Positions 24,310-26,857 of a stretch of DNA of 64,000 nucleotides are shown in pieces. The position numbers and the translations under genes were made by a program. Origin of the DNA: Dehalogenimonas sp. THU2. GTDB lineage: Bacteria > Chloroflexota > Dehalococcoidia > Dehalococcoidales > Dehalococcoidaceae. The notes below the pieces were generated by a model. It worked only from the letters and a program-made list of their open reading frames with translations. It was not told where the DNA came from and did no database searches. Numbering within the stretch: the first letter of the stretch is position 1; every line of letters begins with the position of its first letter. The stretch spans positions 1 to 64,000 of the forward strand of contig NZ_JBDLLU010000013.1 in the NCBI RefSeq assembly GCF_039749495.1, read 5' to 3'.

Positions 24310-24318
24310 TGGCAGATG
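24310..24318. repeat. Left target-site duplication of the mobile element
   Basis: TGGCAGATG, repeated directly at 26507-26515 on the other side of the element. Confidence 0.85.
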
Positions 24319-24373
24319 GGTACTGTTCGGTTGTGGTGGAGACTTTATTTTGGGCGGTGGCTAAAAGACTTAG

Positions 24374-24658
24374 TTACGAAAATATCATACCGCAATCTTT
24401 ACACTGATAACGCTTTCCATTGAATATTTTTTCGATGTTCTTACTTTTGCATTGCGGGCATTTTTCTAACGCTTCGTATTTTGCCCGTTGAATCCTTTCC
24501 CAATCCGATGGCGAGCCTTGTATCATTTCCCAATCAGAACAACTTATAGAAGTCGTATCGCAACCATAAACACAGTTAGTATTGTATCTCAAGCAACTCA
24601 AGCATACATTAACCTTTGCTTTTTCGGGCTTCTTTTTACCAAACCATAAAAATCCCAT
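24374..24658 (-). CDS. Zinc-ribbon protein of the mobile element
   Basis: The 94-aa product has two cysteine clusters. The N-terminal NVCLSCLRYNTNCVYGCD (about 17-33) looks irregular. The C-terminal CPQCKSKNIEKIFNGKRYQCKDCG (about 67-90) is a regular two-knuckle zinc ribbon. Between them lies an acidic, Trp-containing linker. It is transcribed away from the transposase toward the left end. Such ribbons bind nucleic acid or serve as protein scaffolds; its role in transposition is unknown. Confidence 0.7.
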   Translation of the reverse strand: MGFLWFGKKKPEKAKVNVCLSCLRYNTNCVYGCDTTSISCSDWEMIQGSPSDWERIQRAKYEALEKCPQCKSKNIEKIFNGKRYQCKDCGMIFS

Positions 24659-24751
24659 GCGTGAATTATACCCGCTAAAATAATTATTGACAACGTAGCC
24701 ACCTTCGTTTTAGTATATAGACTTAACAAGGGTAATAAAGGACGGTCAATT

Positions 24752-24889
24752 ATGGCTATACCTAGAAAGAAACCCATAATCAAACGTTGCAAACGATGCG
24801 GACACGTTTGGATGGCAAGAGTTACACAACCCGTTGTTTGCCCCGCTTGCTCTAGCCCTTATTGGAATAAGCCAAGGCAAAAGAAGTAA
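24752..24889 (+). CDS. Small basic zinc-ribbon protein (45 aa), transposase leader gene
   Basis: The product MAIPRKKPIIKRCKRCGHVW...VVCPACSSPYW...RQKK has two CxxC knuckles and is strongly basic, as expected for a DNA- or RNA-binding ribbon. AAAGGA precedes the ATG at 24752. Its stop overlaps an ATG (TAATG, 24887-24891) that opens the upstream extension of the transposase frame, a typical translational coupling arrangement. Confidence 0.7.
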   Translation: MAIPRKKPIIKRCKRCGHVWMARVTQPVVCPACSSPYWNKPRQKK

Positions 24890-24915
24890 TGACGGACAAA
24901 GTAATCTATCAGGTG

Positions 24916-24918
24916 TAA
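24916..24918 (+). promoter_or_regulatory. In-frame UAA in the upstream transposase frame (possible recoding site)
   Basis: The frame ATG 24889 (MTDKVIYQV), TAA, GYGHRRKVSKYV continues without another stop into the transposase. The context is GTG-TAA-GGC. Readthrough by the element-borne tRNA is a hypothesis. Confidence 0.45.
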
Positions 24919-24939
24919 GGCTACGGCCACCGCCGGAAA

Positions 24940-25950
24940 GTGAGCAAGTACGTGTTAACCGATTTCGGGTGTAAGTACTGCGAGTCAACGAACGTCGTTA
25001 AATATGGGACGGTCAACGACGTTCAATATTGGTGGTGTAAAAAGTGCGAGCGGAAGTTTGCGGATAACAATGCCTTGCCCAATATGCGAAAACCGCAAAC
25101 CGAAATAGCATCGGCTTTAAGTGCTTTTTATTCCGGCATGAGCATCGACGAAGCGAGAATCCACCTAAGACAAGAATACGGGGATACACCTAGTGATTCT
25201 ACGGTCTATGAGTGGATTCAACGCTTTAGTGACGAAGCCAGTACCAAACTACGGGGATTAAAACCTAAAGTCGGGGATGTTTGGGTAGCCGATGAAACGG
25301 TTCTGGATTTAGACGGGCATAAGATATGGTTCTGGGACTTGATAGACGCCAAAACTAGGTTCCTACTCGCATCACACCTATCATACAGGCGGTCAACGGG
25401 TGATGCTCAATCACTGGTGATGAAAGCTATTAAGCGAGCCGGTAAATCGCCAAAGGTGATTCTAACCGATAAATTAGCCGCCTATTTAGACGGGATACCC
25501 AAAGCGGCGGGGCATTACGGGACGGGCGATATTGAACACTTACAAACTCATGGTTTCGGAAGCGAAACTAACACGAATCTTATCGAGCGTTTCCATTCCA
25601 CTTTGAAGGGACGAACGAAAGTCTTTAAGGGTTTAAAGTCGGTTGAATCAGCTATGACCATTCTTGACGGCTGGCTGGTTCATTACAACTTCTTTAAACC
25701 GCATGAGTCTTTAGAATGGCAAACGCCCGCCGAATATGCGGGGATCGAAAGCCCTTATTCAAACTGGCGGGATGTTGTAGCCGATAGCCGTTTGGATTCC
25801 CCGAATGTAATAACTGTTAGTTCAAAGCGATATGAAGCGGCAACAGTCGGGAAACCTTCACGCTTTGCCCAAAAGCGGCGGGTTAGACAATCTAAACCAC
25901 GAAAGGGGGTGACGCCTATGGCTGTAATTAGTAGCCCTAAAAAGCGTTAA
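24940..25950 (+). CDS. IS6-like DDE transposase with N-terminal zinc ribbon
   Basis: The 336-aa product is read from GTG 24940. An N-terminal zinc ribbon (CKYCESTNVV... WWCKKCERKF, about 11-41) and a helix-turn-helix-like region precede the catalytic core: D in VADETVLDLDG (about 118), D in VILTDKLAAY (about 166) and E in NLIERFHSTLKGR (about 206), the IS6/IS240 pattern. GTG 24940 has no Shine-Dalgarno. The same frame opens at ATG 24889, coupled to the preceding gene, but is broken by a single TAA at 24916-24918 (codon 10). If the element's UUA-anticodon tRNA reads that codon, the product gains 17 residues. Confidence 0.9.
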   Translation: MSKYVLTDFGCKYCESTNVVKYGTVNDVQYWWCKKCERKFADNNALPNMRKPQTEIASALSAFYSGMSIDEARIHLRQEYGDTPSDSTVYEWIQRFSDEASTKLRGLKPKVGDVWVADETVLDLDGHKIWFWDLIDAKTRFLLASHLSYRRSTGDAQSLVMKAIKRAGKSPKVILTDKLAAYLDGIPKAAGHYGTGDIEHLQTHGFGSETNTNLIERFHSTLKGRTKVFKGLKSVESAMTILDGWLVHYNFFKPHESLEWQTPAEYAGIESPYSNWRDVVADSRLDSPNVITVSSKRYEAATVGKPSRFAQKRRVRQSKPRKGVTPMAVISSPKKR

Positions 25951-25976
25951 CGGCTAAGTACTAGTTAGCCGTTAAC
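25946..25976 (+). terminator. Hairpin at the transposase stop codon
   Basis: A perfect 12-bp stem (GTTAACGGCTAA) with a 7-nt loop overlaps the stop codon and lies 17 bp before the tRNA. There is no clear U tract, so it may be a processing or weak termination site. Confidence 0.5.
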
Positions 25977-25992
25977 AAAGGTTTCCGCATCG

Positions 25993-26064
25993 GGGGGCTT
26001 CGTCTAATGGTCAGGACGACGGTCTTTAAAACCGATAGAGCCAGTTCAATTCTGGTAGCCCCCA
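25993..26064 (+). tRNA. Suppressor tRNA, anticodon UUA (reads UAA)
   Basis: The cloverleaf is complete: a 7-bp acceptor stem without mismatch (GGGGGCT with AGCCCCC), U8, a D arm GTC...GAC with GG in the loop, an anticodon stem ACGGT/ACCGA with one A-A mismatch at the first pair, and anticodon loop CTTTAAA. The T arm GCCAG/CTGGT has loop TTCAATT. Loop positions 34-36 are TTA, which decodes UAA and possibly UAG by wobble. The D arm (GTCTAATGGTCAGGAC) is tRNA-Glu-like and the anticodon arm is Gln-like, so one base change at position 36 could derive it from either. CCA is not encoded, unlike the five other tRNAs here. The amino acid is unknown. Confidence 0.85.
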
Positions 26065-26144
26065 CTTGTCTTTAATAGTACACCTAAACACGTTCAAAGT
26101 CAATAGTTTTACGAATAAAATACGATTGAAAGGTAGGTCTTAAT

Positions 26145-26345
26145 ATGGGTTCATTTTTCGGGCGTTTACTGCTTTTTATTCTGGGTGGGGCTTTGCTATT
26201 GGGTGGTATTTTTCTGATATTCTCCGCTATCGTTTCTATGCCCTTTGTCGCCGATTATACCGATTCATTTTGGTTAGTCGGACTACTAGGTGTAGTCGCC
26301 ATGTTAGCGGGGTCGTTTATCAGCCGCTTTGCCATTCACGGCTAA
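26145..26345 (+). CDS. Small two-helix membrane protein of the mobile element
   Basis: The 66-aa product has helices at about 6-30 and 41-60 separated by a short loop (ADYTDSF). AAAGGTAGG lies before the ATG. Its sequence is not recognised. A hairpin with a T-rich tail (26378-26414) lies 33 bp past the stop and could terminate the tRNA/membrane-protein transcript. Confidence 0.6.
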   Translation: MGSFFGRLLLFILGGALLLGGIFLIFSAIVSMPFVADYTDSFWLVGLLGVVAMLAGSFISRFAIHG

Positions 26346-26492
26346 GACAATAACCAAACCGCCTTGTATTATCATACCTAGCCCTACTAAAAATAGGGCT
26401 AGGTATTTTGTCGGCTCAAAGAACGTTAAGACAAAACCTACCCCGACATATACCAGAGACATTCTAAATAGGTGCTTTTTTAAATCAACCAT
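26304..26492 (-). CDS. Possible small membrane protein at the right end of the element
   Basis: The 62-aa frame has two hydrophobic stretches (about 11-27 and 32-53) and a charged C-terminus. It overlaps the end of the plus-strand gene at 26145-26345 and contains a terminator-like hairpin. No ribosome-binding site is visible. Coding is possible but unproven. Confidence 0.4.
   Translation of the reverse strand: MVDLKKHLFRMSLVYVGVGFVLTFFEPTKYLALFLVGLGMIIQGGLVIVLAVNGKAADKRPR
26378..26414 (+). terminator. Hairpin near the right end of the mobile element
   Basis: An 11-bp stem ACCTAGCCCTA with a 7-nt loop, followed by ATTTTG on the plus strand. Confidence 0.6.
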
Positions 26493-26506
26493 AACCGAAC
26501 AGTACC

Positions 26507-26515
26507 TGGCAGATG
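26507..26515. repeat. Right target-site duplication of the mobile element
   Basis: TGGCAGATG, identical to 24310-24318. Confidence 0.85.
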
Positions 26516-26533
26516 TATATCAGATATATTCAT

Positions 26534-26563
26534 TTGACAACTGCTGATTTTTCTGATTATACT
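26534..26563 (+). promoter_or_regulatory. Promoter of the AbrB-arsM pair
   Basis: TTGACA, an 18-bp spacer and TATACT, 19 bp outside the mobile element, so the insertion left the core promoter intact. Confidence 0.75.
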
Positions 26564-26590
26564 GATTTGTATCTATTTGCAGGGGCACTT

Positions 26591-26857
26591 ATGAACAAAG
26601 AAAAAACAACGGCTGATTCCTGCTGCGACACCGGCGAGTGCTGCCGTGTCGAAGCTGTGGTAAGCGTGGATGCCCGTGGGCAGTTGGTGCTGCCCAAGGA
26701 AGTGCGCGAAAGCATGGGTATAGCCGCGGGGGAAAAACTGGCGCTGGTGACCCTCAACCGCGGCGGGAAACCGTGCTGCCTGGTGATGATGAAAGCTGAA
26801 AAACTGGCCAAAGGCGCCAGTGAATTCCTCGGTCCGATTCTGAATGAAATTCCATAA
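26591..26857 (+). CDS. Cys-rich AbrB-family protein (HgcAB-associated type)
   Basis: The 88-aa product is read from ATG 26591 ([12 protein letters not shown]). A Cys-rich N-terminus (CCDTGECC, about 11-18) precedes a SpoVT/AbrB swapped-hairpin DNA-binding domain ([22 protein letters not shown]). A further CC pair sits at [10 protein letters not shown]. Similar proteins accompany arsM or hgcAB in anaerobes. The Cys pairs could bind As(III) or Hg(II), making it a candidate metalloid-responsive regulator. It is co-transcribed with arsM, 10 bp apart. Binding and regulation are inference. Confidence 0.8.

Follow-up and report, generated by a model that had tools for sequence, protein, structure and literature searches.

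The locus raises the question of how a transposon could express a transposase whose reading frame is interrupted by a stop codon. The window analysed here is a stretch of 64,000 nucleotides from Dehalogenimonas sp. THU2 (contig NZ_JBDLLU010000013.1), in which an insertion-sequence-like element carries both an in-frame TAA in its transposase gene and a tRNA gene whose anticodon would read that codon. The reading favoured here, with a probability of roughly 0.8 and drawn from sequence comparison, is that IS6-related transposons of a subgroup marked by 9-bp duplications carry the gene for a tRNA-Glu-derived suppressor tRNA with which their own transposase would be translated. The suppressor tRNA and the in-frame TAA were absent from the original prediction, which was concerned with the borders of the element, and they are the real novelty of the locus.

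The predicted borders at positions 24319 and 26506 proved exact, with the inverted ends in place and the 9-mer TGGCAGATG abutting the element on either side. The ends had been described as 19-bp inverted repeats; they do match, and 14 of 14 terminal positions are identical, but one mismatch falls within the 19 bp (18/19; 91% identity over 22 bp). The proposed 9-bp duplication holds for this element and likewise for a sister element in genome G609 described below. By itself the 9-mer is not rare, occurring twice in the window against 0.61 times expected, and 13 of 100 shuffles also reached two; none of 257 chimeric control loci had matching ends directly flanked by a duplication of 7 bp or more. 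The length of the focal duplication is sharply 9 bp, because an 8-bp repeat would need another register or unequal ends. The element is present in one copy in its own genome (1.84 Mb, 35 contigs). The joined flanks (300 bp each) were compared with the seven other genomes of the genus as a query for the empty site. Two genomes aligned over the junction at 64-65% with the element absent, divergence masking the exact target, while the remaining five aligned best at one or both flanks only. Immediately to the right of the insertion, at positions 26507-26600 of the window, lies a stretch TTGACA...TTTTCTGATTATACTGATT that aligns in six of the seven other genus genomes. The insertion thus sits directly upstream of this stretch, which itself precedes two ORFs that we take to encode an AbrB-like protein and a methyltransferase resembling arsenite methylases; the stretch may be an operator or promoter.

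Table 1. Features of the focal transposon and its flanking duplications (positions of the window).
Feature	Position	Strand	Basis or remark
Target duplication, left 9-bp copy, TGGCAGATG	24310..24318	.	
Whole transposon, 2,188 bp	24319..26506	.	Inverted ends and abutting direct repeats
Inverted repeat, left, GGTACTGTTCGGTT...	24319..24340	+	
Cargo ORF, 94 aa, C-terminus zinc-ribbon-like	24374..24658	-	Family matches weak, below cutoff only
Candidate promoter TTGACA-18-TAGTAT for the small ORF-transposase unit	24687..24716	+	Consensus scan only
Zinc-ribbon ORF, 45 aa	24752..24889	+	Conserved in sister element; stop overlaps transposase ATG
Transposase gene, 353 codons and stop, one TAA inside	24889..25950	+	Zinc ribbon and DDE, IS6/IS240 type
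In-frame TAA, transposase codon 10	24916..24918	+	Conserved in sister element
Shorter transposase frame, GTG start, 336 aa	24940..25950	+	
Hairpin on transposase stop, just before tRNA	25946..25976	+	
Suppressor tRNA gene, anticodon UUA at 26026-26028, CCA not encoded	25993..26065	+	ARAGORN, Rfam RF00005, sister conservation
Cargo ORF, 66 aa, apparently hydrophobic	26145..26345	+	
Cargo ORF, 62 aa, apparently hydrophobic	26304..26492	-	
Inverted repeat, right	26485..26506	-	
Target duplication, right 9-bp copy, TGGCAGATG	26507..26515	.	

The frame that begins at the GTG combines a zinc ribbon of the IS1/IS1595 type with an IS6/IS240 DDE domain. The transposase scored 68.2 bits with Pfam DDE_Tnp_IS240 (cutoff 27) and 124.4 bits with the NCBIfam IS6 model, just below its cutoff of 125 (E 4.8e-36). 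An AlphaFold model of the longer frame, built on a shallow alignment of five sequences, reached a mean pLDDT of 68, with very low confidence for residues 1-25, so that a structural role of the readthrough segment would be conjectural. Foldseek comparison of the predicted model showed resemblance to retroviral integrases, TnsB and the ISCth4 transposase, at low overall TM-scores. Relatives with 35-60% identity are spread over the class and were found in 33 of 393 genomes at E 1e-30, the own genome included; a search with the sister protein found relatives in 32 of 156 genomes from the order at E 1e-60. These searches were thresholded at E 1e-30, 1e-60, 1e-70 and 1e-80, and the relatives inspected are those that passed the respective threshold. 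Scans of viral contigs and a sequence search of solved structures yielded no relative or match, and the transposase found only distant matches of the IS26 type in plasmids and phages. Profile searches with the 66-aa and 62-aa cargo ORFs found no family above its cutoff, and the promoter scan gave four consensus matches where 2.3 were expected.

The element shares with IS6 the GG tips, the cTGTt motif and short, near-perfect inverted repeats (GGTACTGTTCGGTT, 14/14). Two IS6 traits are absent: the target duplication of 8 bp, here 9 bp in both the focal and the G609 element, and the single ORF spanning nearly all of an element that is mostly ~0.8 kb long, here replaced by 2,188 bp with further ORFs, a tRNA and a transposase split by TAA. 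The element is termed IS6-related and not a member of IS6 because its duplication departs from 8 bp. Zinc-finger IS6 elements 1.2-1.8 kb long have already been described in a review of the family, which distinguishes a zinc-finger clade h and a longer clade i (PMC7986276). As those clades are described there, the focal element resembles them in its IS6/IS240-type DDE domain, its N-terminal zinc ribbon of similar length, its GG tips with TGTT and its 14-bp inverted repeat, and differs in the 9-bp duplication, the length of 2.2 kb, the TAA within the transposase, the suppressor tRNA and the extra ORFs (PMC7986276). The same review lists the Dehalococcoides element ISDsp3, which belongs to IS6 and has a single hypothetical passenger gene; it is similar in coming from a related host class and in being an IS6-type element with cargo, and is set apart by its description there, which mentions no tRNA (PMC7986276).

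Ends could be found for 37 of 87 places in the group; the 87 count several places more than once and also take in the sister gene's 3' part. The duplication was 8 bp in 34 of these 37 and 9 bp in three, namely the G609 sister, L180 and L006, the last with a weak inverted repeat. L180 (G752:C95) is a 1,536-bp element with the 9-bp duplication GTCATCAAG, in which a tRNA was sought and none was found. L006 derives from a record titled Euryarchaeota archaeon; its transposase is 37% identical and has no start codon before the zinc ribbon. In the tRNA-bearing lineage the duplication is 9 bp in both elements, and the 9-bp remark of the original prediction therefore marks a real subgroup. Its suggestion of a new IS6-related group stands in so far as a 9-bp subgroup with cargo exists, two sisters having 9 bp and most relatives 8 bp, but a length above 0.8 kb is not distinctive; element length was dropped as a distinguishing mark, the relatives being about 1.4-3.8 kb long.

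The closest transposase was found in G609, a genome of the same order and another family, with 60% identity over the search alignment; over the whole gene, 192 of 348 aligned residues are identical, and estimates lie at about 55-61%. The two elements form a clade with a support of 0.997 in a tree of 84 sequences. They have a module in common that consists of the small ORF, a TAA at the homologous codon, a hairpin at the transposase stop and a UUA tRNA. The G609 element is 5,979 bp long, ends in GGTTCTGTTCGG and GGCTCTGTTCGG and is flanked on either side by the exact 9-bp repeat AGAGAAAAA. This length includes a nested, 2,129-bp IS6-type element that has split the transposase gene and is flanked by the 8-bp duplication CTTGAAGG. 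Read across the nested element, the frame comprises 371 codons including the final stop, with the TAA at codon 9 corresponding to codon 10 of the focal gene. The small zinc-ribbon ORF upstream of the transposase is homologous in both elements, and no similar motif was detected ahead of any of 87 other group places. Among the cargo of the sister element is a 440-aa N6/N4 DNA methylase (L095:1236-2558, minus strand) whose C-terminus bears an Mrr-type nuclease-like domain; the transposon appears to carry it as a fusion of restriction-modification-like character.

Upstream of the GTG, the transposase frame continues through the single TAA as far as an ATG at 24889; this ATG and the stop of the 45-aa ORF overlap. 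The N-termini read MTDKVIYQV*GYGHRRKVSKYVLTDFGCKYC in the focal element and MEKIVFKV*ANYRKHRKVYKYTLTEFGCKHC in the sister, with one 3-nt indel on each side of the TAA and the frame kept. Over the 27 aligned codons from the ATG to the first Cys, differences at codon positions 1, 2 and 3 number 9, 5 and 19, and random placement reached 19 at position 3 in 15 of 100,000 trials. The bias appears both in the eight codons before the TAA (3, 1 and 5) and in the 17 codons after it (6, 4 and 14). For the whole gene, pN is 0.33 and pS 0.75, the latter saturated. Judged from these comparisons, coding constraint is visible on either side of the TAA, synonymous sites being saturated. In G249, a relative without the tRNA, the homologous stretch is open through the position of the TAA and reads MEITDVYCITRRGKRRMVSRYVLAEDFKCKYC.

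The explanation that survives best beside suppression, although an unlikely one, is that the TAA merely closes a nine-residue leader peptide, that the transposase starts downstream at the GTG and that the tRNA is an unrelated passenger. The focal copy does retain this GTG, the first standard start past the TAA, which could serve as a start; about 10 residues separate it from the first Cys, and in many relatives the distance is similar. In the sister element, however, the position is GTC, and a search for ATG, GTG or TTG between the TAA and the zinc-ribbon Cys found none. The leader and the segment between TAA and GTG moreover show the codon-position bias and aligned homology just described, and the paired conservation of the TAA and the UUA tRNA would be left as coincidence. 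A usable CxxC was present in 76 of the 87 group places, and in L006 and L141 no start codon lies between the last stop and the Cys. The search tables also contain group transposases with an in-frame TGA, TAG or TAA (L141, L108, L115, L186 and L189), which may reflect either decay or recoding, and enrichment of in-frame stops among mobilome genes has been described (PMC7918605).

ARAGORN identified a single tRNA in the element, tRNA-Stop(tta), whose UUA anticodon makes it an ochre suppressor. Its Rfam RF00005 score of 61.4 bits falls within the span of scores given by the 47 tRNAs of its genome. The tRNA of the G609 element was likewise called tRNA-Stop(tta) and is identical at 60 of 73 positions (82%); the two are closer to each other than either is to the host tRNAs compared, which reach at most 70% identity. 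Of 42 pair cells in the two-tRNA comparison, 40 are formed, with all pairs present in three of four helices and one mismatch in the anticodon stem of each tRNA. Two T-stem pairs have changed on both sides, compensatory changes whose covariation was also reached by 140 of 500 pair shuffles and is uninformative with two sequences. A false-positive tRNA call was ruled out because a second element has preserved the gene with compensatory changes; mere flanking DNA was ruled out too, since the inverted ends enclose the gene in both elements. Rfam matches to HepC_CRE, tsr25 and PK1-TEV were dismissed, being far below their gathering scores.

Among the host tRNAs compared, the D-stem GTCT/GGAC occurs only in tRNA-Gln(CUG) and two tRNA-Glu. 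The anticodon loop of the sister tRNA, CUUUAAC, differs from that of host tRNA-Glu(UUC), CUUUCAC, at position 36 alone. A covariance model built from the pair gave both tRNAs 99.7 bits, and no other tRNA tested exceeded 59.2; over 393 genomes of the class it retrieved only the tRNAs of the two elements (99.7 bits), followed by ten matches at 61.5-63.3 bits. Six of these ten were checked and all six were tRNA-Glu(UUC). Because the nearest checked matches are tRNA-Glu(UUC) and the sister loop differs solely at position 36, the suppressor likely descends from tRNA-Glu(UUC) by a change of C36 to A. The suppressor was absent from the about 90 other group elements examined; scans for tRNA-Stop in four locus sets, which share some places, gave 0/14, 1/50 (the sister), 0/31 and 0/10. 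Phage and plasmid records contained no match to the element tRNA.

The window places limits on such a tRNA, as TAA ends 21 of its 49 long ORFs. An efficient suppressor would be costly because TAA is a common stop of host genes, and with TAA as an ordinary stop in the window the suppressor must therefore have low activity or low expression. Any UAA in the cell would be a target of a UUA tRNA, and TAA is common here; this could also suit a tRNA that serves mainly to alter termination elsewhere, for instance in the host or in rival elements, with readthrough of the transposase TAA a by-product or the work of native tRNAs, an explanation we regard as quite improbable; no other TAA-dependent gene came up in this analysis. 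Still less credible is the descent of both copies from a dead ancestor, in which case the TAA would be an ancient nonsense mutation and the tRNA a leftover: the focal element is a single copy and the sister is interrupted, but pN lies well below the saturated pS, both frames are otherwise open, each element retains intact ends and duplications, and the tRNA cloverleaf has been kept with its compensatory changes.

Under translation by the element's own suppressor, the order on one strand of the small zinc-ribbon protein, the ATG-started transposase with its TAA, the hairpin and the ochre suppressor tRNA would be read as a single transcript carrying small ORF, transposase and tRNA. The hairpin may be a processing or pausing site at which the tRNA is released. 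In each element the tRNA is preceded, at a distance of 11 to 16 nt, by a hairpin located at the transposase stop; the two hairpin sequences are unrelated, with z values of -3.7 and -4.6. The focal hairpin is terminator-like on the minus strand (positions 25945-25977 of the window, then CTTTTT) and could stop transcription entering from the right, a terminator role being the alternative to processing or pausing. The released tRNA would be charged, most likely with Glu and possibly with Gln, which would then be the residue inserted. Charging may be poor, because GluRS normally reads the anticodon of its tRNA. The charged tRNA would compete with release factors at the TAA and so permit full-length transposase including the zinc ribbon. 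A weak suppressor would fit a rate-limiting gate on the transposase that keeps transposition low and tied to an intact element. We consider it fairly probable, from the arrangement of the genes, that this amounts to a private code gate: the transposase could be translated only in cells that transcribe and charge the element's own ochre suppressor tRNA, transposition would be tied to the whole element, and output would be set by tRNA dose and competition with release factors. Two copies of the suppressor lineage are known, one of them broken by the nested insertion.

Transposase output in the IS1 and IS3 families is set by programmed frameshifting; the present element would be similar in that a recoding event sets the output, and different in using an element-encoded tRNA at a stop codon instead of ribosome slippage. 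Phages with suppressor tRNAs recode many genes, mostly at UAG or UGA, whereas here one UAA would gate one transposase in an insertion-sequence-like element. Such phages, which carry their own suppressor tRNA and recode a stop codon, are described in PMC10879173, and the likeness lies in a mobile element that encodes a suppressor tRNA for its own genes. No report of an insertion sequence with a suppressor tRNA was found in the open-licence PMC literature, judged mostly by titles and abstracts. If the reading is correct, a minimal transposon depending on a suppressor tRNA would represent a novel mode of transposition control, and a natural ochre suppressor would have persisted in a host in which TAA commonly serves as a stop. 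The system makes testable both the tolerance of cells for an ochre suppressor and the charging of a tRNA-Glu with a changed anticodon.
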